From Klebsiella oxytoca (GTDB taxonomy: Bacteria > Pseudomonadota > Gammaproteobacteria > Enterobacterales > Enterobacteriaceae): a DNA stretch of 64,000 nt. Location of the stretch: contig NZ_CP046115.1 in NCBI RefSeq assembly GCF_009707385.1, positions 1,550,001-1,614,000 on the forward strand, read 5' to 3'. The notes below the pieces were generated by a model. It was not told the DNA's origin. It searched no databases and saw only the letters and a list, made by a program, of their open reading frames with translations. Below, piece after piece: positions 9,851 to 24,546 of this stretch (position 1 is the first letter of the stretch; each line of letters begins with the position of its first letter). The translations under genes were made by a program, and so were the position numbers.

Positions 9851-9860
9851 GGGTCCTCCA

Positions 9861-10454
9861 TTATTGAGAAGTCGGTGGCAGATATTTGCTGATGAAGTGC
9901 TCGGCGAGCGTTTCGGCGCGGGCTTTATCCAACGGTTTACCGCTTAGCGCCGCGCGCAGCCACAGCCCGTCGATCAGCGCGGCGAGACCGTATCCGGCCT
10001 CCTGCGCCTCTTCGCGCGGCAGAGCGCGCTGGAACTCATAGACGATATTCGACAGCAGGCGTCGGCTGCTGACCTGCTGCAGACGATAGAGCATCGGCTG
10101 ATGCATGCTGCTGGCCCAAAAGGCGAGCCAGGCCTTCATCGCCGCGCTGCTTATCTGACTCTCGTCAAAGTTTCCCGCTACGATGGCGCGCAGGCGCTCC
10201 TGAGGAGAGGCGCCGGGCAGAGCGTGCAGACGGCTTAATACCGCCTGGCGCAGCTGGCCGGTGATATCGCGCATCGTCGCTTCCAGCAGCCCGTTCTTAT
10301 CCTTGAAATAGTGGCTGATGATGCCGGTTGATACGCCAGCCCGTCGGGCAATTTGCGCAATGGTGGCATCGTGCATTCCCACTTCATTGATCGCGGCCAG
10401 GGTCGCGTCAATGAGCTGCCGCTGCCGTATCGGTTGCATCCCCAGTTTGGGCAT
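9861..10454 (-). CDS. betI: TetR-family repressor of the bet genes
   Basis: 197-residue TetR-type regulator and first gene of betIBA. The N-terminal helix-turn-helix spans roughly residues 25-47 ([20 protein letters not shown]). In E. coli BetI represses betIBA and the divergent betT and is relieved by choline. The same layout here, with a palindrome between betI and betT, supports that role. Confidence 0.96.
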
Positions 10455-10503
10455 TTCTCAGACTCCATTCATCAGCTTTGTTTATCTATTAAAGCGGTTT
10501 TTG

Positions 10504-10517
10504 ATTGGACGTTCAAT
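10504..10517. promoter_or_regulatory. Candidate BetI operator between betI and betT
   Basis: ATTGGACGTTCAAT is a palindrome with one mismatch (ATTG...CAAT around ACGT). It lies in the 128-bp divergent promoter region, where a repressor could control both directions. Assignment to BetI is inferred from position and symmetry. Confidence 0.55.
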
Positions 10518-10582
10518 ATAAAATGTGTCTTAATTGTTTCCGATTTTGGTTCTAATAGTTACAAAAAAAGTAAGGAGAATGG

Positions 10583-12616
10583 ATGACAGACCTTTCGCCG
10601 AGCAGAGAAAAGGACAAAATCAATCCGGTGGTTTTTTATACTTCCGCCGGACTGATTTTGTTGTTTTCCCTGATGACTCTCTTCTTCAGCGATTATTCCG
10701 CGGCCTGGATTGGCCGTACCCTGAACTGGGTTTCAAAGACCTTCGGCTGGTATTATTTGTTGGCCGCGACGCTGTATATCGTGTTTGTGGTGTGCATCGC
10801 CTGCTCGCGTTTCGGTTCGGTGAAGCTCGGACCGGAGCACTCGAAGCCGGAGTTTAGCGTGCTCAGCTGGGCGGCAATGCTGTTCGCCGCTGGTATCGGG
10901 ATCGACCTGATGTTCTTCTCCGTTGCCGAACCGGTGACCCAGTATATGCAGCCGCCGGAAGGGGCGGGGCAGACCATGGAGGCGGCGCGCCAGGCGATGG
11001 TATGGACGCTGTTTCACTACGGGCTGACCGGCTGGTCGATGTATGCCCTGATGGGGATGGCGTTGGGATACTTTAGCTATCGTTATAATTTACCCCTGAC
11101 CATCCGCTCCGCGCTCTATCCTATCTTTGGCAAAAAGATTAATGGCCCTATTGGCCACACCGTGGATATCGCCGCCGTTATCGGCACCATTTTTGGTATC
11201 GCCACCACCCTTGGCATTGGCGTGGTGCAGCTCAATTATGGCCTCAACGTGCTGTTTGACATCCCGGATTCGCTGGGGGCGAAAGCGGCGCTGATCGTGC
11301 TGTCGGTGATAATCGCCACCATCTCTGTGACCTCCGGGGTGGACAAAGGCATTCGTATTCTTTCCGAGCTTAACGTGGTGCTGGCCCTCGGCCTGATCCT
11401 GTTCATCCTGTTTATGGGCGATACCGAGTTCCTGCTCAATGCGCTGGTGCTTAACGTCGGCGACTACGTGAATCGTTTTATGGGTATGACTCTGAACAGC
11501 TTCGCCTTCGATCGTCCGGTAGAGTGGATGAACAACTGGACCCTGTTCTTCTGGGCGTGGTGGGTTGCGTGGTCGCCGTTTGTCGGTCTGTTCCTGGCGC
11601 GTATTTCACGTGGACGTACCATTCGTCAGTTCGTGCTGGGGACGCTGATTATCCCCTTCACCTTTACCCTGCTGTGGCTGTCGGTGTTCGGCAACAGCGC
11701 GCTGTACGAAATCATCCACGGCAATGCGGCCTTCGCCGCCGAGGCGGTCGCCCACCCGGAGCGCGGATTCTATAACCTGCTGGCGCAGTATCCGGCGTTT
11801 ACCTTTAGCGCTTCGGTGGCGACGATTACCGGCCTGCTGTTCTACGTGACCTCCGCGGATTCCGGGGCGCTGGTGCTGGGTAACTTCACCTCGAAGCTGA
11901 AGGATATCAACAGCGATGCGCCAAACTGGCTGCGGATCTTCTGGTCGGTGGTCATCGGCCTGCTGACCCTCGGCATGCTGATGACTAACGGCATTTCCGC
12001 CCTGCAGAACGCAACGGTGATTATGGGGCTACCGTTTAGCTTCGTGATCTTCTTCGTGATGGCGGGGTTGTACAAGTCGCTGAAGGTCGAGGATTATCGC
12101 CGCGAGAGCGCCAACCGCGATACTGCCCCGCGCCCGCTTGGCGTACAGGATCGCCTGAGCTGGAAGAAGCGTCTGTCGCGGCTGATGAACTATCCCGGCA
12201 CGCGCTATACCCGCCAGATGATGGAAACGGTATGCTTCCCGGCGATGGAAGAGGTGGCGCAGGAGCTGAAGCTGCGCGGCGCCTACGTTGAGCTGAAAAG
12301 CCTGCCGCCGGAAGAGGGGGATAACCTGGGCCATCTCGACCTGCTGGTGCATATGGGCGACGAGCAGAACTTTATTTATCAAATCTGGCCGCAGCAGTAC
12401 TCCATTCCCGGCTTTACCTACCGGGCGCGTAGCGGGAAGTCGACCTACTATCGTCTGGAGACCTTCCTGCTGGAAGGGAGTCAGGGCAACGACCTGATGG
12501 ACTACAGCAAAGAGCAGGTCATTACCGATATTCTTGACCAGTACGAGCGTCATTTGAACTTTATCCATCTGCATCGCGAAGCGCCGGGCAACAGCGTGAC
12601 CTTCCCCGGAATGTAG
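10583..12616 (+). CDS. betT: High-affinity choline transporter
   Basis: BCCT-family secondary transporter of 677 residues. About twelve transmembrane helices precede a long hydrophilic C-terminal tail (from about residue 505) typical of osmosensing BetT proteins. The BCCT tryptophan-rich segment is visible as WTLFFWAWWVAWSPFVGLFL. AAGGAG precedes the ATG. It is divergent from betIBA and supplies choline for BetA/BetB. Confidence 0.96.
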   Translation: MTDLSPSREKDKINPVVFYTSAGLILLFSLMTLFFSDYSAAWIGRTLNWVSKTFGWYYLLAATLYIVFVVCIACSRFGSVKLGPEHSKPEFSVLSWAAMLFAAGIGIDLMFFSVAEPVTQYMQPPEGAGQTMEAARQAMVWTLFHYGLTGWSMYALMGMALGYFSYRYNLPLTIRSALYPIFGKKINGPIGHTVDIAAVIGTIFGIATTLGIGVVQLNYGLNVLFDIPDSLGAKAALIVLSVIIATISVTSGVDKGIRILSELNVVLALGLILFILFMGDTEFLLNALVLNVGDYVNRFMGMTLNSFAFDRPVEWMNNWTLFFWAWWVAWSPFVGLFLARISRGRTIRQFVLGTLIIPFTFTLLWLSVFGNSALYEIIHGNAAFAAEAVAHPERGFYNLLAQYPAFTFSASVATITGLLFYVTSADSGALVLGNFTSKLKDINSDAPNWLRIFWSVVIGLLTLGMLMTNGISALQNATVIMGLPFSFVIFFVMAGLYKSLKVEDYRRESANRDTAPRPLGVQDRLSWKKRLSRLMNYPGTRYTRQMMETVCFPAMEEVAQELKLRGAYVELKSLPPEEGDNLGHLDLLVHMGDEQNFIYQIWPQQYSIPGFTYRARSGKSTYYRLETFLLEGSQGNDLMDYSKEQVITDILDQYERHLNFIHLHREAPGNSVTFPGM

Positions 12617-12674
12617 GCCATCTAAACGTTTTCTGAAAAAGGGATTTGACTGGTTAAATATACAGTGAGAAACG

Positions 12675-12838
12675 CAGGGAGGCGTATGATGGCGGCGGGT
12701 GCCTGAGGCTTTCTGCGTTCAGGCTTAGGTGAGGATTCAGAAAGACGAAGCCCCAGGAGATGTTCCCATCAACCTGAGGCTCACGATCCAACCCTAGCAC
12801 GTTGGATAGTAGCCTCTTCTTCGCATGGAGGCAACGAG
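12675..12838 (+). ncRNA. hok mRNA leader and likely Sok antisense target region
   Basis: The leader upstream of hokE has the hok-type arrangement: CTGAGGCTTTCTGCGTTCAG, later CAGAAAGACGAAGCCCC, then a GATAGTAGCCTCTTCTTCGC block before the toxin start. These correspond in order to blocks of the R1 hok mRNA leader that mask translation and bind antisense Sok RNA. The Sok RNA would be on the minus strand in roughly 12700-12800; its exact ends are not visible. Confidence 0.5.
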
Positions 12839-12991
12839 ATGCTGACAAAATACGCCCTGGTGGCAATCATCGTGCTGTGTCTGACAGCGCTGGGATTGAC
12901 GTTAATGGTGCGCGACTCGCTGTGCGAGCTGAGCATCAAAGAACGTAGTATGGAGTTCAAGGCCGTTCTCGCTTACGAAACGAAGAAGTAG
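12839..12991 (+). CDS. hokE: Hok/Gef-family type I toxin (HokE-like)
   Basis: 50-residue membrane toxin. It reads [20 protein letters not shown], one membrane helix, then [14 protein letters not shown] and AVLAYETKK. The conserved Hok cysteine and the ...E..AVLAYE.KK tail match E. coli HokE closely. GGAGG precedes the ATG. Hok proteins depolarise the inner membrane and are silenced by an antisense Sok RNA. The conserved leader makes the module look intact. It is isolated between betT and the polyol cluster. Confidence 0.88.
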
Positions 12992-12998
12992 CCGGTAT

Positions 12999-13016
12999 GC
13001 GGGGAGCTATCCCCGC
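12999..13016. terminator. Hairpin downstream of hokE
   Basis: GCGGGG (12999-13004) and CCCCGC (13011-13016) flank AGCTAT eight bases after the hokE stop. Only a short TTAT follows, so termination is likely but not strong. The remainder up to 13184 shows no gene. Confidence 0.5.
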
Positions 13017-13184
13017 TTATCCGCAGGCTGGGTAAGGAACCTTAAGGCACCTTTTTTCTGCTTATGGGGGCAGGATGGACGGCGAGAGAACATCGACCGG
13101 TTAAAACAATCGCGCCGCCACCCTGCATACTGCTTCGCCGGTCGCTGTCAGTATATTGATATCCATACCGGCATTCGGTCCGTT

Positions 13185-13970
13185 CTACCAGCAGACAAAG
13201 CCGCCGTCGACGACCAGATCAACCCCGGTACAGAATGATGCCGCATCGCTGGCAAGGAACAGCGCCGGACCGGCCATCTCTTCCACCTTCGCCATACGCT
13301 GGATCGGCGTCTGGCTTTCAAATTCGCGGGTCTGGTGAACCATCTCTGGACGGGTGTTCATCGGCGTGGCGGTGTAGCCGGGACTGATGGAGTTCACGCG
13401 GATCCCTTTGCCGATCCACTCCATCGCCAGGCTTTTCGACAGGTGGATCACCCCCGCTTTAGAGCAGTTATAGTGCGCCTGATCGAGGCCCCGATTAACG
13501 ATGATGCCGGACATCGAGGCGATATTAATAATCGAGCCGCCGCCAGATTCCTGCATCAGCTCGGCTTCCGCCTTACAGGAGTTCCACACGCCAGTGAGGT
13601 TGATGTCGATAACCCGCTGCCACTGCTCGGTTTCCATCTCAAGCGCCGGATTGGCATTAGCAATCCCGGCGGCGTTTACGGCGACATCAAGGCGGCCAAA
13701 GCGGCTTTTGGCCAGCGCAACACCGGCGCGCAGGTCGCTAAGCTGACGGACATCGCCGGTGTAAAAACAGGCTTCTCCACCAATGGCTTCGATATTGTTT
13801 ACGGTTTCAGCAAGGCCCCCGTCTTCGCGTAGATCAAAGCAGACTATCCGAGCGCCCGCGCTGGCGAGGCCATAAGCAATCATCTGGCCGATACCGCTGC
13901 CTGCGCCGGTCACAAAAGCGACGCGGTCCTGTAGATTAAACAGCTGTTGGGCAAAATCTTTTGCGATCAT
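13185..13970 (-). CDS. SDR-family polyol/sugar dehydrogenase, last gene of the polyol operon
   Basis: 261-residue classical SDR. TGAGSGIG lies near residues 20-27, NAAG near 98, the serine in NIASMSG near 150 and YNCSK gives the Tyr/Lys pair. The C-terminus ends VVDGGFVCW, reminiscent of sorbose reductase, xylulose reductase and threitol dehydrogenase relatives. It is the last gene of a leftward set with an ABC importer and a sugar kinase, so oxidation of an imported polyol to a ketose is the likely role. The exact substrate is unknown. Confidence 0.8.
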   Translation of the reverse strand: MIAKDFAQQLFNLQDRVAFVTGAGSGIGQMIAYGLASAGARIVCFDLREDGGLAETVNNIEAIGGEACFYTGDVRQLSDLRAGVALAKSRFGRLDVAVNAAGIANANPALEMETEQWQRVIDINLTGVWNSCKAEAELMQESGGGSIINIASMSGIIVNRGLDQAHYNCSKAGVIHLSKSLAMEWIGKGIRVNSISPGYTATPMNTRPEMVHQTREFESQTPIQRMAKVEEMAGPALFLASDAASFCTGVDLVVDGGFVCW

Positions 13971-14019
13971 AGTTATTACTCTCTAAAAAATATTCTTTAG
14001 CATGCCCGGTGTTGGCGTT

Positions 14020-14165
14020 CCCGGAGGCGGCGCGTTGCGCCTGTCCGGGCTACCAGACGGTGCTGATCTGTTGTTTCCCCGGATTGCGGCATAAACGTCT
14101 TATCCGGGCTACAAAATTGTGCCGACCGGAAGCCCGGGTAAGGCGTCAGCCGCAACCCGGGGGAC
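14020..14165. repeat. REP-like palindromes between the two SDR genes
   Basis: CCCGGAGGCGGCGCGTTGCG with CCTGTCCGGGCTAC, followed by two related units with CCCGGGTAAGGCGTCAGCCG. These are BIME-type intergenic palindromes inside the operon and might attenuate or stabilise the transcript. Confidence 0.6.
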
Positions 14166-14169
14166 CGCA

Positions 14170-14967
14170 TTACGACATAATCAGGCCGCCATCTATATTG
14201 ATGGTCTGCCCGGTGAGATAGCGCGCGTCATCGGAGGCGAGAAACGCCACCAGACCAGCAACGTCTTCCGGTTTACCGGCACGCTTCATCGGAATGCCTT
14301 CGACCCACTCCGCCATCAGCTCGCCCTTACCGTAGCGTTTCTGCTCGGTGCTGAGGATCTCGCCCCATACCCGGTCGTTGTAGTCCCACATTTCGCTTTC
14401 AATAATGCCCGGACAGAAGGCGTTGACGGTGATATTCCACGGCGCCAGCTCGTGCGCCAGGCTTTGGGTAATGCCGATAACGCCCATTTTGCTGGCGGCA
14501 TAGTGCGGGGTATAAATAAAGCCCTGACGCCCCTGGCCGGAAGAGGTATTGATCAGGCTGCCGTGGTTCTGCTTAACCATATATTTGGCGGCTTCGCGGC
14601 AGCACAGCCAGACGCCGGTGGTGTTAACGGCGAGCACTTTTTCAAAGTCGGCTTTCGGCATACGATCGTAATAGTCGATAGTGATCACGCCCGCGTTCTG
14701 GATAGAGACGTCAATGGTGCCGAAACGCGCCGCCGCCCGCTCGTACAGTGACTGCACCTGCGCTTCGTCGGTGACATCAACCTGCAACGAAAGAATATCG
14801 GCCTGATAGCGCTGGCGTAAGGTTTCCGCCGTTTCGTGGACGCGCTCGGCGTTAGAGACCATCACCAGATTCGCCCCGTCGCGCGCAAAGCGCTCGGCGA
14901 TACCGGCACCAATTCCGCGGCAGGCGCCGGTGATAACAACCGTTTTGTTCTCGAAATTTCTTTGCAT
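14170..14967 (-). CDS. SDR-family dehydrogenase, second in the polyol operon
   Basis: 265 residues from the ATG at 14967; AAGGG lies nine bases before it, while an in-frame ATG three codons upstream has no spacing to that site. TGACRGIGAGIA is the nucleotide-binding motif, NAG occurs in IQNAGVI, the active-site region is YAASK and the end is GQTINIDGG. The insert WDYNDRVWGEILS resembles sorbitol/galactitol-type dehydrogenases. A second SDR in one operon suggests two successive oxidations or two substrates. Confidence 0.8.
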   Translation of the reverse strand: MQRNFENKTVVITGACRGIGAGIAERFARDGANLVMVSNAERVHETAETLRQRYQADILSLQVDVTDEAQVQSLYERAAARFGTIDVSIQNAGVITIDYYDRMPKADFEKVLAVNTTGVWLCCREAAKYMVKQNHGSLINTSSGQGRQGFIYTPHYAASKMGVIGITQSLAHELAPWNITVNAFCPGIIESEMWDYNDRVWGEILSTEQKRYGKGELMAEWVEGIPMKRAGKPEDVAGLVAFLASDDARYLTGQTINIDGGLIMS

Positions 14968-15027
14968 GTTTTTCATCCCTTATAGAAGCCGGACGCCGGT
15001 GCGTCCGACGGGGTAATAAAGACGTTA

Positions 15028-16083
15028 TTAACTGGTGGCACCTGCCGCAGCCAGCTTCTCCTCATGGCGGCGCATCAGGATGACTTTGTTTTGTAGTTTT
15101 TGCTGGAACTGGTCGACAACGACCGCGGTGACGATAACCACGCCCTTAATGACCATCTGCCAGAAATCGCTGACCCCCATCATCACCATGCCATCAGCCA
15201 GGAAGACGATAACGAACGCGCCGATAATAGAGCCGGTAACCCGGCCACGGCCGCCTGCCAGCGCGGTTCCGCCGAGCACGGTGGCGCCGATAGCGTCCAT
15301 TTCGAACATATTGCCGGTCATCGGGTGCGCGGTTTGCAGCTGTGAGGCGACGATAAGACCAACGAACGCCGAGCACAGGCCGGAGAAGGCGTAAACAAAG
15401 ATTTTTGCCTTGACGATAGGTACACCTGCAAGGCGAGCGGCGGATTCATTACCGCCGATAGCGTAGATATAGCGGCCCAGCGGGGTTTTGGTGGTCAGCC
15501 AGTAGCCCAGCAGCAGGAAGCCGATCATCAGCCAGATTGGCAAATAAATGCCCATCAGCGTTCCGGATCCCAGGGTGGAGAAACCGGTATTGCCCAGCGC
15601 TTCCATGCCGTTAAGGTTCGGGTAGGTGCTGCCGTCGTTGAACAGCAGCGCCGAACCCCTGGCGACATACATCATGCCCAGGGTGCAGATAAAGGGCGCC
15701 ACGCCGAAGCGGGTGATTACCGCGCCGTTAACAAAGCCGACCAGTACGCCGAAGAGCGCCACGCAGAGGATCACTTCCGGCACGTTGAAGAAAATGACGC
15801 TGCCGTTCCACAAGGGCAGGCCGTTAGTTAATAGCGCCCCGGCAACCATGCCGCAGATCCCGGCGACGGCGCCAACGGAAAGGTCGATACCGCCCGTCAG
15901 AATAACCAGCGTCATACCGATGGCCAGCAGGCCGGTGATGGCCACGTGCTGGGTCATAATCAGCAGGTTAGATGTGGTCAGGAAATTCGGTACCATCACG
16001 CTGAAAAACGCGATAACCAGCAGCAGAGCGATAAACGTTCTGGCTTTCAGCAGGTACATATAAATCATATATTTCTGGTTCAT
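15028..16083 (-). CDS. Sugar ABC transporter permease (RbsC-like)
   Basis: 351-residue BPD_transp_2-type inner-membrane permease with about ten hydrophobic segments. The first conserved core is GMTLVILTGGIDLSVGAV and the later one is YAIGGNESAARLAGVP. It lies 17 bp downstream of the ATPase gene. Family members transport ribose and other pentoses, autoinducer-2 or polyols; the ligand here is inferred to be a sugar or polyol from the dehydrogenase and kinase genes. Confidence 0.9.
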   Translation of the reverse strand: MNQKYMIYMYLLKARTFIALLLVIAFFSVMVPNFLTTSNLLIMTQHVAITGLLAIGMTLVILTGGIDLSVGAVAGICGMVAGALLTNGLPLWNGSVIFFNVPEVILCVALFGVLVGFVNGAVITRFGVAPFICTLGMMYVARGSALLFNDGSTYPNLNGMEALGNTGFSTLGSGTLMGIYLPIWLMIGFLLLGYWLTTKTPLGRYIYAIGGNESAARLAGVPIVKAKIFVYAFSGLCSAFVGLIVASQLQTAHPMTGNMFEMDAIGATVLGGTALAGGRGRVTGSIIGAFVIVFLADGMVMMGVSDFWQMVIKGVVIVTAVVVDQFQQKLQNKVILMRRHEEKLAAAGATS

Positions 16084-16100
16084 GATGGGTTCCAGCCTGA

Positions 16101-17645
16101 TTAATCTTGAGGTGTTGAAGCCGCGATTAATTTTTCGCGGGTAACCGCATGACGCGGTAAATCGGCGGTAATCCGGCCATCGGCCATCACCAAAATGCGA
16201 TCCGCCAGCGCCATCACTTCATCCAGCTCCGATGAAGAGAACATCACTGCCAGACCCTGTTGGGCCATTTTGCCGATCAGGTGATAAACGTCGGTTTTCG
16301 CGCCGACATCAATGCCGCGAGTGGGCTCATCGAGAAATACCACCTCCGGCCTGGTCATCAACGCTTTGCCGAGTACCACTTTTTGTTGGTTGCCGCCGCT
16401 GAGCGAGGTGATCGGTAGTTCGGGATCGCTAACCTTGATGGCCAGCTCGCCAATCATCTCTTTGACGCAGGCCGTTTCCTTCTGCGGATTCAGCCATTTC
16501 CACGCCCGACGAAAGCCCTGCAGGCTGAAATCGGATAAGGTCATATTCGACTGAATCGACATCATCTGCACCACGCCTTCGCCCTGGCGGTCTTCAGGAA
16601 CCAGCGCCAGCCCCTTTTTCAGCCGCGTCTGGAACGAAGACTTTTCGATGTTTTCGCCGTTGAGCTGGACGTTACCGCTCTGGCAGGGCATCAGGCCGAC
16701 CAAGCCTTTGAACAGCTCCGTGCGCCCGGCGCCGAGCAGACCGTAGATGCCGATGACTTCCCCTTTACTTAAGGTGAAGGTCACGTCGTTGAGCTTATAG
16801 CCGCCGCTGGGATGGAGCGCCGTCAAACCATCAACGGCAAGTACCGCCTCGCCTTTTGGCGCAGGCCGGTAGTCAAAATGTTTTTTCTTATCGCCGACCA
16901 TCTGTTCGATAATCCACGGAATACTGGCGTCGCTGACTTCACGCTCGCTGATAAAGCGCCCGTCGCGGAAAATAGTGATGTGATCGCCAATTTCCATCAG
17001 CTCTTCCAGACGATGGGAAATATAAATAATGGTGACGCCACGGCGTTTAAGCTGCTCAATAACGTTAAACAGGATTTTGACTTCCGACTGACTGAGTGCG
17101 GAAGTGGGCTCATCCATAATTAATACCCGGGTGTCTTTTGAAAGCGCGCGCGCAATTTCCACCAGCTGCTGATGGCCGATACCTAATTCGCCGAGCGGGG
17201 TATAGGGATCGACGTTAAGTTCGAGCCTCTCGAGTAATTTTTTGGCTAACTCATATTGATATTTTTCGTTAATCTTTCCTTTCTGAAAGAATTCGTTAGC
17301 CATAAAAATATTATCCATGACGTTCATGTTCGGGAATAAGTTTAATTCCTGAAAAATGATGCTGATGCCATGTTTCTCTGCCTGATGGGTGGAGCTTAGG
17401 GTGACCGGAGTACCGTCAAGAATAATTTGACCGGAAGAGGGTGTTTCAACGCCAGCAAGCATTTTCATCATGGTGGATTTACCCGCACCATTTTCACCGA
17501 TCAGAACGTTTACTTTATTTCGATAGACCCGATAGTTCACGTTATCTAAAGCCACAACGCCTGGATAAACGCGTGATAATTCGCGGGTTTCGATAATAAC
17601 TTCAGATTCGACTGGTTGGGAATTGACGAGTTCTTGCCGCTGCAT
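16101..17645 (-). CDS. Sugar ABC transporter ATP-binding protein (RbsA-like, tandem)
   Basis: 514 residues from the ATG at 17645, preceded by GGGAGGACAATAAG; a longer frame exists but lacks this site. Two fused ATPase domains are visible: Walker A GENGAGKST in the first, and GLLGAGRTELFK in the degenerate second. LSGGNQQKVVLGKAL is the second signature and VFLDEPTRGIDVGAK its Walker B. It begins one base after the stop of the DUF2291 gene, so translation is coupled. Confidence 0.91.
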   Translation of the reverse strand: MQRQELVNSQPVESEVIIETRELSRVYPGVVALDNVNYRVYRNKVNVLIGENGAGKSTMMKMLAGVETPSSGQIILDGTPVTLSSTHQAEKHGISIIFQELNLFPNMNVMDNIFMANEFFQKGKINEKYQYELAKKLLERLELNVDPYTPLGELGIGHQQLVEIARALSKDTRVLIMDEPTSALSQSEVKILFNVIEQLKRRGVTIIYISHRLEELMEIGDHITIFRDGRFISEREVSDASIPWIIEQMVGDKKKHFDYRPAPKGEAVLAVDGLTALHPSGGYKLNDVTFTLSKGEVIGIYGLLGAGRTELFKGLVGLMPCQSGNVQLNGENIEKSSFQTRLKKGLALVPEDRQGEGVVQMMSIQSNMTLSDFSLQGFRRAWKWLNPQKETACVKEMIGELAIKVSDPELPITSLSGGNQQKVVLGKALMTRPEVVFLDEPTRGIDVGAKTDVYHLIGKMAQQGLAVMFSSSELDEVMALADRILVMADGRITADLPRHAVTREKLIAASTPQD

Positions 17646-17646
17646 C

Positions 17647-18267
17647 TTATTGTCCTCCCAAACGAACAATTTTTGCTGGCGTAATATCAGGAACGCTCTG
17701 CGGAATATCCCAGGCGGAGAACACGCCGTAGACCTGTACTGCTTCGCCGGTTTTAACCTGCGCCGTCTGGATCATCTTGACGGCGTGTTCATTAATCGCC
17801 CGGCTATATTCACCAAATAGCACCTGATCGTTGAAGTCCTGATAGCTGGCGCCCTGATAGCCGTCGCGTAATAATGTGCCGCGCAGCGTTGGGCCAATTT
17901 GCACTACCACGTTGCTGCCGCTGGTATCCTCAATCGTCATTTTTCCGCTACGTGAAGCGGAATCAATTTTGCTGATAGTGCCTTCAACTTTGACGTAAAA
18001 AACGCACGGATTTTCATCCTGAGCACGATAGCCTAACGCTTTGCAGGCGCTATCAATATCATGCGCTGCGCCGAGAGCGGTCATTAATTCGGCGACCGGG
18101 CGAGCTTTAGCCACAACCTGAGGAACCACCTGGTCTTGCCATGTCCGATCGATATCCGCCATATGCGGATTGGGCGGAGATTTAAGATCGGCCAGCTCCT
18201 GCTGAGAGACGATACGACAGCCTCCGAGCGCAAGAACGACCAGCATCAGCGATATTTTTTTATACAT
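17647..18267 (-). CDS. DUF2291 lipoprotein of the sugar ABC operon
   Basis: 206 residues from the ATG at 18267, which has GGAG six bases upstream; the longer frame starts inside the preceding spacer. MYKKISLMLVVLALGGCRIV is a lipoprotein signal with lipobox LGGC. DUF2291 proteins are commonly found with RbsABC-type importers, but their function is not established. The gene lies between the binding-protein and ATPase genes. Confidence 0.82.
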   Translation of the reverse strand: MYKKISLMLVVLALGGCRIVSQQELADLKSPPNPHMADIDRTWQDQVVPQVVAKARPVAELMTALGAAHDIDSACKALGYRAQDENPCVFYVKVEGTISKIDSASRSGKMTIEDTSGSNVVVQIGPTLRGTLLRDGYQGASYQDFNDQVLFGEYSRAINEHAVKMIQTAQVKTGEAVQVYGVFSAWDIPQSVPDITPAKIVRLGGQ

Positions 18268-18310
18268 AATACTCTCCTGTGCGCCCCGGAAGGGGCGCAA
18301 CAACCCGAAA

Positions 18311-19246
18311 TCAGGATTTGATATTGAAGTCCTGTACTTTATCTGCGTTGTCCTGGGTTATCAGGATGCCGCGGAACATCACGCGCTGCTTCGCCGGTTT
18401 TTCACCTTTTTGCAGGTAGTTATCGAGATCGGTCACCCCCTGAGCGGCGATGGCCTGGGCCTGAAGCATCACGGTAGCCTGCAGGGTGCCGGCTTTTACC
18501 GCGTCGCGTTCATCGTTGCTGCCATCAATACCAACCACCACAACGTCGGTGCGATTAGCGGCTTTCAGCGCGGCGATAGCGCCGAGTGCGACAGGACCGT
18601 TGCCGCAAATCACGCCCTTCACGTCAGGATGCGCTTGCAGAATACTGTCCATAATGCGTTTGCCGTCGATTAACGTGCCCTTAGCGTCTTGTTTGGCCAC
18701 GCTGACCATATCGGGGTACTGGTCGATAACCTGGTGGAAAGATTTAGAGCGGGTAACGCAGTTATTATCCGCCAGGTTACAGGTCAGTTCGGCGTATTTC
18801 CCTTTCTCCGCCATTTTCTCAACAAATACGTTGGCGACTTCAGAACCGGCCTGGAAGTTATTATGGGTAATTTGCTCCAGCGCGATATCATCAACCGGAA
18901 TTTCGCGGTTAATTAATACCACCGGAATACCGGCTTTCTTCGCTTTTTCAATAGCGGCGACGCTGGCGGTGGAGTCGGCGTTATCCAGAATAATGCCCTG
19001 AACTTTTTTACCGATGGCGGTATCGATCAGCTCATTCTGTTTTTTTACATCTTCGCCGTGCGACAGAATAGTGGTTTGATATCCCAGTTCTTTTGCTTTT
19101 TCGCTGGCGCCCTTGGCTTCAGAGGCGTAATAAGGGTTATCCAGCGAGTTTACCATGATCATAATGGTGCCTTTTTCTGCCGCCTGGGCAGCAAAAGAAA
19201 AGGCGGTCAGGGTAGCAGCAGTTAAAAGCGTTAAACGTAATTTCAT
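18311..19246 (-). CDS. Sugar ABC transporter periplasmic binding protein
   Basis: 311-residue RbsB-like periplasmic-binding protein (Peripla_BP_4). The signal peptide MKLRLTLLTAATLTAFSFAA ends near AQA-AE. The mature start GTIMIMVNSLDNPYY and the hinge-region strands VQGIILDNADS and VVVVGIDGSNDE are family features. Two cysteines in LTCNLADNNCVT may form a disulfide. It is the first transport gene of the leftward operon and lies downstream of the kinase gene, separated by a repeat element. Confidence 0.9.
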   Translation of the reverse strand: MKLRLTLLTAATLTAFSFAAQAAEKGTIMIMVNSLDNPYYASEAKGASEKAKELGYQTTILSHGEDVKKQNELIDTAIGKKVQGIILDNADSTASVAAIEKAKKAGIPVVLINREIPVDDIALEQITHNNFQAGSEVANVFVEKMAEKGKYAELTCNLADNNCVTRSKSFHQVIDQYPDMVSVAKQDAKGTLIDGKRIMDSILQAHPDVKGVICGNGPVALGAIAALKAANRTDVVVVGIDGSNDERDAVKAGTLQATVMLQAQAIAAQGVTDLDNYLQKGEKPAKQRVMFRGILITQDNADKVQDFNIKS

Positions 19247-19346
19247 GACAATTTTCTCTCTTGGTTGTTATTGTCGGGTACGGTGAAACAACGTAAGGCC
19301 TGTAAATCAAGTTTATGGGCCGGGGGTCTCCTTTTGTTGATGAGTA

Positions 19347-19553
19347 AGAGCCTATCCATTAGGGCTATTTTACTGGCCATTTTGAACCAGGGCAGTGCTC
19401 GACAAAATACGAAAGTATTTTGAACGCCCTTCAGGGCGGCCCGGAGGGCGAGCATCGCGAGTTAATCCTCACGTACTACGTGTACGCTCCGGGATCGAAG
19501 CGCTGTCCGTGTTCAAACTGCCTGCGCCAATAACGCCTACTGGGATAGGCTCT
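19347..19553. repeat. Dispersed element with terminal inverted repeats, copy 2
   Basis: AGAGCCTATCC (19347-19357) and GGATAGGCTCT (19543-19553) are perfect 11-bp terminal inverted repeats. The interior shares GGGCAGTGCTC, CTCACGTACTACGTGTACGC and GCGCTGTCCGT with copy 1 at 175-318. It also has about 60 extra bases that include CCCTTCAGGGCGGCCCGGAG. It lies between the kinase and binding-protein genes. Confidence 0.72.
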
Positions 19554-19587
19554 AAAGTGCGTCACACGCGCGATTCCCTGGTGGGCG

Positions 19588-21108
19588 TCAGGCGGACGTT
19601 GCCGGTTTCCATAATGTTCTGTTCACCGCATGGCGCCACTCCTGCCATCTTTTCTGCAGGCGCTGGTGGCGGGCCATATCGGGGATAAATTCGCTATGTT
19701 CGGTTAAAAAGGCTTTCAGATCGGTCACCGATCCGGGATTCAGGGCTTTGCGTGCGAGCAGGGCCGCGCCAATCGCCGACAGTTCGGCAACGTCGCTGCG
19801 CATCACCGGGCAGCCGAGCAGATCGGCCTGATACTGCATTAACCAGTCATTTTTGGTTGGGCCGCCGTCGACCATCAATGCCGTCAGGTGGAAGTCATCC
19901 TGCTGGCGCATCGCAACGACGACATCGGCGATTTGATAGGTAATGGATTCCAGCGCGGCGCGAATCAGATGGGCGCGCTTGACGCCGCGGCTCAGGCCGC
20001 AGATTACGCCGCGCGCGCTGTCATCCCACCACGGCGCGCCAAGGCCGGTTAACGCCGGGACAAAATAGACGCCCAGCGTCGAATCAACGGAGGCGGGCAG
20101 CGTGTTGAGTTCATGCGCCAGTTCCGCGGCGGAAAGCTCGCTTAAGCCGGTACTGTCGGCCATCCATGCTACGGCGTCGCCGGTATGCGGAATATTACCT
20201 TCTAGCCCGTAGGTCATGCTGTCGCCGTCGTGCCAGGCGACGGTGGTGGCCAGCGCGTCGATATCGCACTGGGCGGATTTTACCGGCGCCATCACCGATG
20301 ATCCGGTACCGTAGGTGGCTTTAACGCAGCCGGATTCGCCCAGCGCGTGGCCGAACAGCGCGGCATGGGAATCCCCGACCATCGCCATTACCGGGATACC
20401 GTCAGGGATCGCGTTCAGCCCGCGGGTATAGCCAAATAATCCGCTGGAAGGTTTAATTTCCGGCAGCGCGGCGCGAGGGATCTGAAACAGCGCCAGCATT
20501 TCGTCGTCCCACTGACCGGTTTGCAGGTTGAGCAGCTGGGTACGTGCGGCATTGGAGCAATCGCAGTAAAACGCCTCACCCTGGGTTAAGTTCCACAGCA
20601 GCCAGCTGTCGATAGTGCCAAGGCAAATTTCTCCGCGCTCTGCCTGCATTCTGCCGTCCGGGATGGATTCCAGCAGCCAGCGCATTTTCGAGGCAGAGAA
20701 CAGCGGCGCAATCGGCAAGCCGGTAGTTGTTTTGATTTGCTGCTCTTTACCGTTGCGACGCAGTTCATCGCAAAATTCAGCGCTGCGGGTACACTGCCAG
20801 GTGATGGCCGCGTTGATCGGCTTACCGCTCTGGCGATACCAGCCGATTGCCGTTTCGCGCTGGTTGCTGATGGCTAAGGCAGCGACGTTTGCAGCGCCAA
20901 CGTGTTCAACCGCTTGCGCAATAACGTCCAGTGACGCCTCTACCAGCACTTCTCCCGACTGCTCGACCCAACCTTCACGCGGTGTTTGAATCGCCAGCGG
21001 CTGGGAGAATTTCACCACGACCTGGCCGCGGCTATCGAGCACCACGGCTTTGGCATTGGTGGTGCCCTCGTCCAGTGCAATGATGAACTCTTTACGTGTT
21101 GCCTGCAT
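19588..21108 (-). CDS. FGGY-family carbohydrate kinase
   Basis: 506-residue FGGY sugar kinase. The N-terminal phosphate loop is ALDEGTTNAKAVVLD, the NQRETAIGWYR and TWQCTRSAEF segments match the substrate side, and GTGSSVMAP plus VDGGPTKNDWLMQYQADLL match the C-terminal ATP-binding half. It resembles glycerol-kinase-type members, but the context (polyol dehydrogenases, sugar importer, transketolase) points to a ketose made from a polyol. AGGAG precedes the ATG. Confidence 0.88.
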   Translation of the reverse strand: MQATRKEFIIALDEGTTNAKAVVLDSRGQVVVKFSQPLAIQTPREGWVEQSGEVLVEASLDVIAQAVEHVGAANVAALAISNQRETAIGWYRQSGKPINAAITWQCTRSAEFCDELRRNGKEQQIKTTTGLPIAPLFSASKMRWLLESIPDGRMQAERGEICLGTIDSWLLWNLTQGEAFYCDCSNAARTQLLNLQTGQWDDEMLALFQIPRAALPEIKPSSGLFGYTRGLNAIPDGIPVMAMVGDSHAALFGHALGESGCVKATYGTGSSVMAPVKSAQCDIDALATTVAWHDGDSMTYGLEGNIPHTGDAVAWMADSTGLSELSAAELAHELNTLPASVDSTLGVYFVPALTGLGAPWWDDSARGVICGLSRGVKRAHLIRAALESITYQIADVVVAMRQQDDFHLTALMVDGGPTKNDWLMQYQADLLGCPVMRSDVAELSAIGAALLARKALNPGSVTDLKAFLTEHSEFIPDMARHQRLQKRWQEWRHAVNRTLWKPATSA

Positions 21109-21229
21109 TAGGTAGTCTCCTGAGTCACACTTCGTCCTGGCGCAGAGGGGAACGGTTGCTACTCCTCGTTATCGCATTGCTTCCTGGCAGGTCATGATGT
21201 GACAATTCGTTTTCACTTTTTTAATCACT

Positions 21230-21241
21230 GAATATATATTC
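21230..21241. promoter_or_regulatory. Candidate SorC-type operator upstream of the kinase operon
   Basis: GAATATATATTC is a perfect 12-bp palindrome in the 363-bp gap before the kinase gene. The same 12 bases occur at 22592-22603 before the transketolase genes, on the other side of the SorC-family regulator gene. The flanks TCACT and AGTGA extend the symmetry imperfectly. Confidence 0.6.
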
Positions 21242-21417
21242 GATAGTGATTATTTATTTGATACCTTAGCCAGAAACTTCCCGTCGGGCTACAGGAAAAG
21301 TTATCAATTGTGCTGGCAATCACACTTATCGGATCAACGAAGTATCCCGATGTTGGTGAAAAAGAGAGCGGCTTTGTGCTTTTATCCTACTGAAATATAT
21401 TGATTTATTAGCATCAC

Positions 21418-21443
21418 CTTTACGCCTGAGAGAAAGCGTAAAG
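21418..21443 (-). terminator. Hairpin at the 3' end of the SorC-family regulator gene
   Basis: CTTTACGC (21418-21425) and GCGTAAAG (21436-21443) form an 8-bp stem just beyond the regulator stop. No strong T-run follows, so this is a weak terminator candidate. Confidence 0.4.
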
Positions 21444-21471
21444 GCTGTGGGAAAGTGTTGGAGTGGGGATT

Positions 21472-22422
21472 TCAATCGGCAATAAGCAATCTTGCCGTGG
21501 GGTAGTCGGTAATTAAAACATCGATATATCCGCCCGACAGCGCACCTTTGATAGCTGCCACCTTATCTCTGCCGCCGGCTAGAGCCACCACGTTAGGGCA
21601 CTTCTTCACTTTCTCCAGCGCCATACCGATTACAGGATCTTCATCATCGCGTAACACTGCGTTACCGTTTTTGTCGTAGTAGTGCAGGCAAATGTCCCCC
21701 ACGGCGCCGCGTTCCGCCAGCACCTGGAGCATATCTTCGTGATAGTAGTTGCCGGAGGTTTTCAGCAGCTGTGACGGTTCAAGAATGCCAATGCCGACAA
21801 TAGCGATATCGACTTCGTCGAAGCGGGCGATAACATCGGCGACATCTTTGCTGGCAACGAGGCGATTTTTTTCCTCGGTGGAACCCTCAATGCTTTGGGA
21901 AGGGAGCAGCCAGGCTTCACAGTTCAGATGCTGCGCCAGAGTTTGGGTGAGAATGGTCGCCTGCACGTTACCGTTTGGACCGACGCCGCCCAGCAGTTGA
22001 ATGACGCCGCTGGCCTTCAGGTTTTGTGCATGAACCTCATCCACCATCGCACGAATGGTCGAGCTCCACGAAGAGACGCCGATCAGATCTTTTGGCCGCA
22101 ATCGCGTCTCCAGATAGTGCGCGGCGGCGGAGCCAATAGCGCGCTTGATGGTGTGATCGCTGGCGTCTTCTTCAGTATCCACCACGATGGCTTGTTTAAT
22201 GCCGTAACGATCCTCGAGGCCTTTTTCAAGATTGAGGAAAATATTCGATGGCTGAACAACGCTGATTTTGACCACGCCTTCTTTTTGGCAGCGGGTGATC
22301 GCTCGGGAGATAAATGATTGAGAAAGCGAGAGAAGTTGAGCGATATCGGACTGCTTGCGTCCTTCAAGATAGTAGAGCGTGGCAATCTTAACTAATAGCC
22401 GTTGTTCATCCTGCTTAGCCAT
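21472..22422 (-). CDS. SorC-family sugar-binding transcriptional regulator
   Basis: 316 residues. The N-terminal helix-turn-helix is visible in YLEGRKQSDIAQLLSLSQSF (about residues 19-38), followed by a SorC/DeoR-type sugar-phosphate-binding domain (GVGPNGNVQATILTQTLAQH, VDIAIVGIGI, VVALAGGRDKVAAI). Such regulators usually sense a phosphorylated sugar of the pathway they control. The gene sits between the leftward kinase/transport operon and the rightward transketolase genes, with identical palindromes near both promoters. Confidence 0.9.
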   Translation of the reverse strand: MAKQDEQRLLVKIATLYYLEGRKQSDIAQLLSLSQSFISRAITRCQKEGVVKISVVQPSNIFLNLEKGLEDRYGIKQAIVVDTEEDASDHTIKRAIGSAAAHYLETRLRPKDLIGVSSWSSTIRAMVDEVHAQNLKASGVIQLLGGVGPNGNVQATILTQTLAQHLNCEAWLLPSQSIEGSTEEKNRLVASKDVADVIARFDEVDIAIVGIGILEPSQLLKTSGNYYHEDMLQVLAERGAVGDICLHYYDKNGNAVLRDDEDPVIGMALEKVKKCPNVVALAGGRDKVAAIKGALSGGYIDVLITDYPTARLLIAD

Positions 22423-22590
22423 ATATTTCCCCGAAAATCATTTACGTGCAGCCATTATGTTAGAGCTCATTATCATACGCGAAAAGAAAAGACAGTTAAG
22501 TGTGATGAATATCTAACTTTCACCAATCGTCAAAAACAGCTATGGACAAAAACAAATCGCTGGTCGCATAATTGAATAAAGAATCGTTAT

Positions 22591-22604
22591 TGAATATATA
22601 TTCA
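22591..22604. promoter_or_regulatory. Candidate SorC-type operator upstream of the transketolase genes
   Basis: TGAATATATATTCA is a perfect 14-bp palindrome between the regulator and the transketolase pair. Its 12-bp core is identical to the site at 21230-21241. Flanking CGTTAT and TTGACG extend the symmetry imperfectly. It could serve autoregulation and transketolase control. Confidence 0.62.
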
Positions 22605-22668
22605 TTGACGATTTCAGGTCAACTGAAAAGTATCCGGGTGAAGTTATGCCTGGTGGTAAGGAGGCAGA

Positions 22669-22737
22669 ATGTTCCTGAGTATGATGCAGCGGCGTAAGCC
22701 TTACGATGCGTTGCCTGGGGATGTCTGGTTTTTTTAG
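22669..22737 (+). CDS. Possible 22-residue leader peptide before the transketolase genes
   Basis: TAAGGAGG lies five bases before an ATG that opens MFLSMMQRRKPYDALPGDVW then FF and a TAG. The ribosome-binding site is stronger than that of the real transketolase start 50 bp downstream. There is no recognisable family; it could be a regulatory leader peptide or a remnant. Only expression data would settle it. Confidence 0.35.
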   Translation: MFLSMMQRRKPYDALPGDVWFF

Positions 22738-22787
22738 TCCCTGACGGAATAAATATTCCAAGTTGAAAATAAATTCAGAGGTATTAA

Positions 22788-23618
22788 ATGAATCCCTATA
22801 GCTATGATGTCCAGGCACTTGAGCGTAAAGCCCGCGCCGTACGTCGCCATATCGTCAGATTGAATGCCAATAGCCCGGCTGGTGGGCACACCGGTGCCGA
22901 CCTGTCTCAGGTTGAACTGATCACCGCGCTCTATTTCCGCATTATGAACGTTGCGCCGGACCGCCTGGATGACGACCAGCGTGATATCTACATTCAGTCG
23001 AAAGGCCATGCGGTGGGCTGCTACTACTGCGTGCTGGCCGAAGCGGGCTTCTTCCCGGTTGACTGGCTGGAAACCTATCAGCATGCCAATTCACATCTTC
23101 CTGGTCACCCGGTTCGTCAGAAAACGCCGGGTATTGAGCTTAACACCGGCGCGCTGGGCCACGGTTTGCCTGTTGCGGTGGGGCTGGCGCTGGCTGCAAA
23201 GAAAAGCAACAGCTCCCGCCGCATCTTTTTAATTACCGGCGATGGCGAACTGGCGGAAGGCAGCAACTGGGAAGCGGCGCTGGCTGCGGCGCACTATGGC
23301 CTTGATAACCTGGTCATTATTAATGACAAGAACAATCTCCAGCTGGCGGGGCCGACCCGCGAAATCATGAATACCGATCCGCTGGCTGATAAATGGAAGG
23401 CCTTCGGGATGACGGTCACCGAGTGCCAGGGTAACGACATGGCCTCGGTAGTGGCGACCCTGGAAGGGCTGAAGCAGGAAGGTAAACCGAACGTTGTTAT
23501 CGCCAACACCACGAAAGGTGCCGGTATTTCCTTTATCCAGGGGCGCCCTGAATGGCACCACCGGGTACCGAAAGGCGAAGAAATTGCACTGGCACTGGAG
23601 GAACTGAAAGATGAGTAA
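22788..23618 (+). CDS. Transketolase N-terminal subunit (split transketolase)
   Basis: 276 residues covering the thiamine-diphosphate-binding half only. Visible are AGGHTGADLSQVELITALYF, the SKGHAVG motif, HLPGHP, LNTGALGHGLPVAVG and the TPP motif TGDGELAEGSNWEA. The pyrimidine and C-terminal domains are in the next gene, which overlaps by eight bases. Two-gene transketolases occur in several sugar pathways, including apulose-4-phosphate transketolase (AptA/AptB) of D-apiose catabolism. A dedicated pathway enzyme is more likely than housekeeping Tkt. Confidence 0.9.
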   Translation: MNPYSYDVQALERKARAVRRHIVRLNANSPAGGHTGADLSQVELITALYFRIMNVAPDRLDDDQRDIYIQSKGHAVGCYYCVLAEAGFFPVDWLETYQHANSHLPGHPVRQKTPGIELNTGALGHGLPVAVGLALAAKKSNSSRRIFLITGDGELAEGSNWEAALAAAHYGLDNLVIINDKNNLQLAGPTREIMNTDPLADKWKAFGMTVTECQGNDMASVVATLEGLKQEGKPNVVIANTTKGAGISFIQGRPEWHHRVPKGEEIALALEELKDE

Positions 23619-24546
23619 TGCAGAACACCTGGCGAGCGTGATGGTTCAGGCCTTTATTGATGCGGTCGACAGCGGGGTTGACCTGGTGCCGGTGGTGGCT
23701 GACTCAACGTCTACGGCAAAAATTGCCCCGTTTATTAAACAGTTTCCCGGCCGTCTGGTTAACGTGGGTATCGCCGAGCAGAGCATGGTCGGTACGGCGG
23801 CGGGGCTGGCGCTGGGAGGCAAAGTGGCGGTCACCTGTAACGCCGCGCCGTTCCTGATTTCCCGCGCTAATGAACAGATTAAAGTCGACGTTTGCTATAA
23901 CAACACCAACGTTAAGCTATTTGGCCTTAACGCCGGGGCCAGCTACGGCCCGCTGGCCAGCACCCATCACGCGATCGACGACCTGGCGGTGATGCGCGGC
24001 TTCGGTAATATCCAGATTTTTGCCCCGTCTTCGCCGCGCGAATGTCGGCAGATTATCGATTACGCTATCGGCTATCAGGGGCCGGTGTATATTCGTCTTG
24101 ACGGTAAGGCGCTGCCGGAACTGCACGATGAAAACTATCGCTTTGTGCCGGGAGCGGTCGTCACGCTGCGGGAAGGCGAGGATATCGCGCTGGTCGCGAC
24201 GGGGTCAACGGTGCATGAAATCGTCGATGCCGCGCAGATGCTGGCCGACGCGGGGATTCAGGCCAAAGTGGTGAGCGTGCCGTCCATTCGCCCTTGCGAT
24301 ACCGCCGCGCTGCTGGCAGCGCTGAAGCCGTGCAAAGCGGTGATTACGGTGGAAGAACATAACGTCAACGGCGGATTGGGTAGCCTGGTGGCGGAAGTGC
24401 TGGCCGAAGCGGGCGCGGGCATTACGCTTAAACGTCTGGGGATCCCGGATGGCGAGTATGCGGCGGCGGCGGACCGCGGCTGGCTGCGCAAACATCATGG
24501 TTTTGATGCCGCTTCTGTGGCGGAGCTGGCGCAGAAGATGCGCTGA
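23611..24546 (+). CDS. Transketolase C-terminal subunit (split transketolase)
   Basis: 311 residues with the pyrimidine-binding (Transket_pyr) and C-terminal domains. The cofactor-activating glutamate is expected in NVGIAEQSMVGTAAGLALGG; later ASTHHAIDDLAVMRG and VITVEEHNVNGGLGSLVAE match the family. It overlaps the N-terminal subunit gene by eight bases, implying a fixed ratio of subunits. A terminator-like hairpin follows. Confidence 0.9.
   Translation: MSNAEHLASVMVQAFIDAVDSGVDLVPVVADSTSTAKIAPFIKQFPGRLVNVGIAEQSMVGTAAGLALGGKVAVTCNAAPFLISRANEQIKVDVCYNNTNVKLFGLNAGASYGPLASTHHAIDDLAVMRGFGNIQIFAPSSPRECRQIIDYAIGYQGPVYIRLDGKALPELHDENYRFVPGAVVTLREGEDIALVATGSTVHEIVDAAQMLADAGIQAKVVSVPSIRPCDTAALLAALKPCKAVITVEEHNVNGGLGSLVAEVLAEAGAGITLKRLGIPDGEYAAAADRGWLRKHHGFDAASVAELAQKMR

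Follow-up and report, generated by a model that had tools for sequence, protein, structure and literature searches.

How can a cluster that encodes an FGGY kinase and a split transketolase of the D-apiose type, and no isomerase for that sugar, supply these enzymes with their ketose? The question is raised by ten genes at positions 13185-24546 of a 64,000-nucleotide stretch of Klebsiella oxytoca DNA (assembly GCF_009707385.1, contig NZ_CP046115.1, positions 1,550,001 to 1,614,000; the whole stretch is called the window below), in a host genome that forms a single contig of 5.39 Mb. Judging from its sequence, the cluster most likely lets Klebsiella use the plant cell-wall sugar D-apiose, and we lean, if not strongly, towards one model in which D-apiose import, a redox route through two short-chain dehydrogenases/reductases (SDR2, then SDR1), phosphorylation of apulose, cleavage by the split transketolase and a palindrome-bound regulator would act together. 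All ten open reading frames (ORFs) are intact and lie where a preliminary description of this DNA had placed them, and Pfam and NCBIfam models confirm what it had seen there, namely two SDRs, an Rbs-type ATP-binding cassette (ABC) importer, a DUF2291 lipoprotein, an FGGY kinase and a two-subunit transketolase. The regulator, kinase, binding protein, lipoprotein, ATPase, permease, SDR2 and SDR1 genes are on the minus strand, and the two transketolase genes, divergent from these eight, on the plus strand:

13185..13970, minus strand: SDR1, 261 aa, proposed NAD-dependent apiitol dehydrogenase; NF004774/PRK06114 passed
14170..14976, minus strand: SDR2, 268 aa, proposed NADPH-dependent D-apiose reductase; Pfam SDR
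15028..16083, minus strand: ABC permease of the RbsC type; PF02653 (BPD_transp_2)
16101..17645, minus strand: ABC ATPase of the RbsA type; PF00005 in two stretches
17647..18267, minus strand: DUF2291 lipoprotein; PF10054, 150.3 bits
18311..19246, minus strand: periplasmic binding protein with an Rbs-like fold and an altered pocket; Peripla_BP_4
19588..21108, minus strand: FGGY kinase, proposed apulose kinase (AplK of PMC13001218); PF00370/PF02782
21228..21243, no strand: operator-like palindrome in the kinase-regulator gap; motif count
21472..22422, minus strand: SorC/DeoR/LsrR-like regulator; PF04198 (sugar-binding domain), 209 bits
22590..22605, no strand: operator-like palindrome in the regulator-transketolase gap; motif count
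22788..23618, plus strand: transketolase N-terminal subunit (AptA of PMC13001218); PF00456
23611..24546, plus strand: transketolase C-terminal subunit (AptB of PMC13001218); PF02779/PF02780

None of the ten ORFs is a D-apiose isomerase gene, which sets the cluster apart from the canonical ApsI-AplK-AptAB arrangement. This arrangement is that of the D-apiose transketolase pathway of Pectobacterium, with ApsI, AplK and AptA/AptB, reportedly described by Carter et al. in 2018. Nor does the host genome hold, at E 1e-100, a protein of the type of ISO, the isomerase-like protein of related clusters that is introduced below and that served as query instead of the Pectobacterium ApsI.

The same ten genes, in identical order and adjoining entD, are found in an annotated region of Escherichia coli O25:H4, with protein identities of 75-94% (SDR1 90%, SDR2 94%, kinase 87%, transketolase N-terminal subunit 92%, C-terminal subunit 87%). 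Of 5426 complete E. coli genomes, 920 contain part of the stretch by megablast; at the best places, identity is about 80% and coverage of the query 71%, and nowhere does coverage reach 80%. An orthologous cluster has been named the D-apiose degradation cluster, and its aplK, aptA and aptB genes named, by Royer et al. (2026; PMC13001218). According to this study, the cluster is found in 100% of the complete genomes of STc131 (n=126) and STc14 (n=22), two pandemic E. coli clones for which D-apiose use is proposed as a niche factor; carrier E. coli and E. fergusonii grow on D-apiose as their sole carbon source, as Pectobacterium also does, and K-12 is negative; kinase and split transketolase orthology with the Pectobacterium pathway is claimed; and apsI is given as absent, two putative oxidoreductases being proposed to replace the isomerase ApsI (PMC13001218). 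Under the screening rule of the same paper (at least 5 of 10 genes, including aplK, aptA and aptB, within 10 consecutive coding sequences, at 40% identity and 80% coverage), which would let in isomerase-type clusters as well, the window holds 10 of 10 genes in one stretch, as compared with the O25:H4 strain instead of SE15 and with coverage judged by lengths. A looser rule finds the cluster in 98 genera, Klebsiella among those named (PMC13001218); as this rule would admit isomerase-type clusters too, the list of genera is not one of SDR clusters.

The window thus resembles the clusters of STc131, STc14 and E. fergusonii in its ten genes, their order, the entD neighbour, the two SDRs and the absence of apsI, and differs in its host, Klebsiella, and in its other flank, which is made of bet genes instead of ybdK. 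The preliminary description had found no described pathway to match the route; the orthologous cluster published in 2026 shows that it is already described in E. coli. The logic it had proposed (import, formation of a ketose, phosphorylation by an FGGY kinase and two-carbon transfer, with a likeness to AplK and AptA/AptB) largely finds support, as does its suggestion of SDRs taking the place of the isomerase, which is also the proposal made for E. coli (PMC13001218).

To place the two SDRs in a wider context, we compared 101 loci, made up of the best 80 of 490 relatives, 20 stretches from further genomes and the E. coli region, with ORFs labelled by BLAST best hit; some genomes are counted twice among them, so that locus counts are not independent. 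Three types of cluster are found. In the SDR type, to which the window belongs, SDR2 occurs together with SDR1. Clusters of the ISO type, which occur in Leclercia, Kosakonia, Citrobacter braakii, Klebsiella indica and others, encode in place of the SDR pair a protein of 472 residues whose C-terminal domain is of the fucose isomerase kind (ISO); their ABC importer set is another one, about 43-57% identical to that of the window, whereas the regulator, kinase and transketolase subunits are about 70-85% identical and the palindrome is common to both types. Among the 120 matches listed for ISO, none bears the name of D-apiose isomerase, and those that are named belong to the fucose/arabinose isomerase family. 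The third type, hosted by Erwinia, Pantoea, Dickeya, Serratia marcescens and others, combines SDR2 with a different SDR (SDRX) and a more distant transketolase, and a related form of it occurs in a Succinivibrionaceae metagenome-assembled genome (MAG) and in genomes of another family. The third type has thus exchanged one SDR and still retains a pair, which fits a need for two steps.

A search of 82 genomes with ISO and SDR2, most of them chosen for carrying the kinase (G012 and G018 are without it at the cut used), found ISO only in 29, SDR2 only in 45, both in 4 and neither in 4. In the first set of 32 genomes, ISO was found in 6, SDR2 in 24, both in 0 and neither in 2; in the second set, the genomes of 50 of the 80 loci mentioned above, ISO was found in 27, SDR2 in 25, both in 4 and neither in 2. 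The loci outside this second set were set aside as likely duplicates (L093 among them), as MAG contigs or because the set was capped at 50 loci, and duplicates are possible among the genomes counted. In Klebsiella, the ISO and SDR clusters furthermore share one address, the interval between entD and betT: an ISO cluster of this genus (L142) begins at entD, and two others (L038 and L039) end at a BetT-length ORF followed by BetI- and BetB-length ORFs.

The two types also share their presumed control. The palindrome TTGAATATATATTCAA, a consensus derived from the window and searched for in relatives with up to 3 mismatches, is conserved in SDR-type loci in 34 of 34 kinase-regulator gaps and in 34 of 35 regulator-transketolase gaps, and in ISO-type loci in 30 of 30 regulator-transketolase gaps. 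Among loci with other gene arrangements, 3 of 5 of the SDR type and 1 of 31 of the ISO type (where kinase and ISO belong to a single operon, ISO coming first) have it upstream of the kinase, and 3 of 4 of the SDR type and 2 of 3 of the ISO type have it upstream of the transketolase. Outside the tested stretches, 32 matches were counted in 1,955,173 bases, several of them directly before ISO-type importers, and with at most 2 mismatches the host genome holds 6 sites, of which 2, including the best one, are in the cluster. Of our computed arguments that ISO and SDR clusters supply one and the same set of later steps, this sharing of palindrome and regulator is the best. The presence of the palindrome in both gaps around the regulator also supports the view, put forward in the preliminary description, of the cluster as one regulatory unit.

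In classical SDRs, an Asp at the end of strand beta2 goes with NAD, when a basic residue in the Gly motif without an acid at the beta2 end goes with NADP. SDR1, which passes NF004774/PRK06114 (502.5 bits against a cut-off of 360), an SDR family of unnamed function, has Asp46 at this position, and Asp is found there in 37 of the 37 relatives read. SDR2 passes no NCBIfam equivalog cut-off among the 25 matches listed; its Gly motif contains Arg20, and its strand beta2, which spans residues 36-41 in a predicted structure that is weak overall (mean pLDDT 68.9) and reaches at least 84 in this part, ends in Ser41. Ser at the beta2 end combined with Arg in the Gly motif is found in 56 of 65 SDR2 proteins. 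By fingerprint, SDR1 therefore looks NAD-type and most SDR2 proteins NADP-type, which suggests a passage from D-apiose through apiitol to apulose. The SDR2 of all four genomes that also hold ISO has Asp instead, a hint that the Ser form may act as the apiitol-forming reductase in genomes lacking an isomerase.

On this basis, the enzyme steps, the order and cofactors of the SDRs and the inducer that we infer can be set out as a model. The Rbs-type importer would bring in D-apiose, which SDR2 would reduce with NADPH to apiitol, itself oxidized by SDR1 with NAD+ to apulose; the FGGY kinase would convert apulose into apulose 4-phosphate, and the split transketolase would transfer the C1-C2 unit of the latter to glyceraldehyde 3-phosphate, yielding xylulose 5-phosphate and dihydroxyacetone phosphate; the regulator would act on the two promoter gaps through their palindromes, with a phosphorylated intermediate as its probable signal. 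The ten-gene synteny with the E. coli cluster, the lack of an ISO-type protein in the host at E 1e-100, the near-exclusion of ISO and SDR2, the common palindrome and Klebsiella address, the retention of two SDRs and the SDR fingerprints together make us regard this model as somewhat better than even. Fungi convert xylose by a comparable logic, in which a xylose reductase turns the aldose into a polyol and a xylitol dehydrogenase turns the polyol into a ketose, each with its own cofactor; if the model holds, the likeness would be one of working and not of membership, the protein families and the sugar being different.

Several observations weigh against this model. Nine of the 65 SDR2 proteins carry the NAD-type Asp form. 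Four genomes, those of Phytobacter massiliensis (whose SDR2 contains a stop), Pseudescherichia vulneris, Escherichia sp. ESNIH1 and Vibrio salinus, hold both ISO and SDR2, so that the two modules are not strict alternatives. On a kinase tree made by a quick method (93 rows), two label changes between ISO and SDR suffice when only ISO and SDR rows are counted, so that the exclusion reflects few switches; an account of it as many independent events is rejected on these grounds. In third-type loci, the palindrome is found in 0 of 25 stretches upstream of the kinase and 0 of 25 upstream of the transketolase. Two loci (L079 of Klebsiella sp. BIGb0407 and L080 of an uncultured Cedecea) have the ISO-type importer, regulator, transketolase and kinase, and their genomes hold neither ISO nor SDR2 at the cuts used. 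Finally, six aligned pocket positions differ between SDR-linked and ISO-linked binding proteins.

This last point deserves attention, as it bears on what is imported. The nearest solved chains of the binding protein are 5ibq, reportedly solved with D-apiose, and 4ry0, a Rhizobium etli protein titled ribose transporter binding protein. At the pocket positions, taken over from ribose-binding proteins and placed by alignment, SDR2-linked proteins have Tyr-Tyr, Asn, Gly, Ile and Leu (12/12) when ISO-linked ones have Phe-Phe, Asp, Trp, Phe and Gln (5/5). A Fisher value for this contrast is disregarded, as it ignores kinship. The difference suggests that what the SDR-type importer carries may be a different ligand or the sugar in a different form, apiitol being a natural candidate.

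The pocket divergence is what chiefly favours the polyol that the preliminary description had suggested as a possible substrate. This would make apiitol the natural substrate, with one SDR leading to apulose and the other serving a second substrate such as D-apiose as a side entry, a reading that we find rather unlikely. Besides the pockets, it draws on the ISO-linked binding protein being much closer to 5ibq/4ry0 than that of the window (439 versus 271 bits to 5ibq), on Vibrio salinus, where ISO and both SDRs occur under the same palindrome with two importers, and on the Asp form of SDR2 found in all four genomes with both ISO and SDR2, although this last link is loose, Asp forms without ISO occurring in L040 and L083, as well as in L049 and L050 of another family. 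Against it, a polyol would call for no more than one SDR, and the cluster retains two; literature searches found nothing on bacterial apiitol use, PMC13001218 being the only relevant paper in the library searched; and the growth evidence concerns D-apiose only (PMC13001218). Import of a polyol is therefore not supported, though the diverged pocket keeps it as a rival.

Other accounts detach the SDRs from D-apiose altogether. A broad-specificity chromosomal sugar isomerase could make apulose from D-apiose, the SDRs doing something else; we hold this to be improbable, since it leaves unexplained both the near-exclusion of ISO and SDR2 and the constant pair of SDRs in SDR-type and third-type clusters. 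What speaks for it is that K-12, the negative control in PMC13001218, presumably lacks the importer, kinase and AptAB as well, so that its failure to grow does not establish the SDRs as the replacement. Very improbable, in our view, is a linear pentitol pathway (e.g., for arabitol or xylitol) unrelated to apiose: SDRs, an FGGY kinase and an Rbs-type importer are usual for pentitols, but a linear pentulose phosphate, which enters the established pentose phosphate pathway, needs no dedicated transketolase, and orthology and synteny with the D-apiose cluster lead us to reject this pathway.

The kinase was likewise weighed against a known function. It is 95-96% identical to kinases of Klebsiella spallanzanii, K. 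oxytoca, K. grimontii and K. michiganensis (among the best 80 of 490 relatives), and its best relatives all sit in D-apiose-type clusters, on a tree that holds no GlpK and no assayed AplK. It passes the GlpK subfamily model NF000756 (505.7 against a cut-off of 498) and falls under the cut-off of the GlpK equivalog TIGR01311 (510.9 against 590.35); the closest other FGGY kinase of the host genome is GlpK-like and 42% identical. Compared with this protein, the kinase keeps Arg84, Glu85 and Asp246, and has Leu136, Ser247 and a Ser where GlpK has Tyr135, Gln246 and Phe270, which we take to be glycerol contacts in E. coli GlpK; Leu136 and Ser247 are invariant in 11 of 11 aligned kinases. A plain glycerol kinase is provisionally rejected on the missed TIGR01311 cut-off, the 42% identity and the changed contact residues, and these changes fit a larger, branched substrate.

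As for the remaining proteins, the top NCBIfam model of the permease is the ribose permease PRK09512, scored under its cut-off, and the nearest models of the regulator, DeoR of the B. subtilis type and LsrR, are both under cut-off as well. The ATPase start was set at an ATG, with an alternative TTG upstream at 17669. The transketolase subunits, whose genes overlap by 8 bases, find their closest solved matches in 6yak (N-terminal chain of a split transketolase) and 6yaj (C-terminal chain); a residue comparison with the host genome's own transketolase gave an alignment too gappy for use. The host has a second split transketolase at about 3.81 Mb (L143, 5332-8535), 28% and 39% identical to the window's subunits and adjoining a 476-residue ORF; it would belong to another pathway that has a two-subunit transketolase to itself.

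The flanks were read from sequence as EntD and FepA on one side and BetT, BetI and BetB on the other, the former backed by the annotated E. coli O25:H4 region. Between the BetT-like gene and SDR1, positions 12697-12991 match the sok RNA family RF01794 (88 bits), and an intact hok-like reading frame starts from 12839; the E. coli cluster is likewise flanked by hokE genes. G+C is 0.507-0.515 in the ATPase, DUF2291 and binding-protein genes (16101-19246), 0.601 in the gene for the transketolase C-terminal subunit and 0.587 in the window. Promoter-like and terminator-like sites are near the shuffled level (11 versus 9.5 and 17 versus 14.0).

Some of the relatives show peculiarities of their own. 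The Klebsiella ISO-type cluster at entD (L142 of G012, 9658-18843) is missing its kinase, and Mu-type-phage-like ORFs follow ISO. In Leclercia adecarboxylata NCTC13032 (L089), ISO is in two overlapping pieces in different frames, be it a broken gene or a sequencing error. Erwinia aphidicola has a third-type cluster on each of two contigs of one genome (L116 and L117). A contig filed as a Sporobacter termitidis MAG (L063) carries a Klebsiella-like cluster, whose kinase has an end branch of 0 beside a same-genus genome, and is probably mis-binned. A single stretch of Vibrio salinus (L109) combines ISO and both SDRs with one kinase, two ABC importers and two transketolase pairs. Palindromes are found next to SDR2, the kinase, the two importers and both transketolases, and the stretch is a natural case for telling the ISO and SDR modules apart.

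In the use of D-apiose, a branched sugar of plant cell walls, it is the SDR step that the E. coli study leaves open (PMC13001218). The locus and its relatives make this step testable, as to which SDR reduces, which oxidizes, with which cofactor, and whether apiitol serves as food. Going further, and only tentatively, an NADPH reductase and a NAD dehydrogenase may have replaced the isomerase step, with chromosomal site and regulator unchanged and the importer pocket altered, so that apiitol would be both an entry point and an intermediate and the pathway might serve sugar and polyol alike. If the model is true, the Klebsiella cluster would be a bacterial case of a redox pair replacing an isomerase within one regulon.

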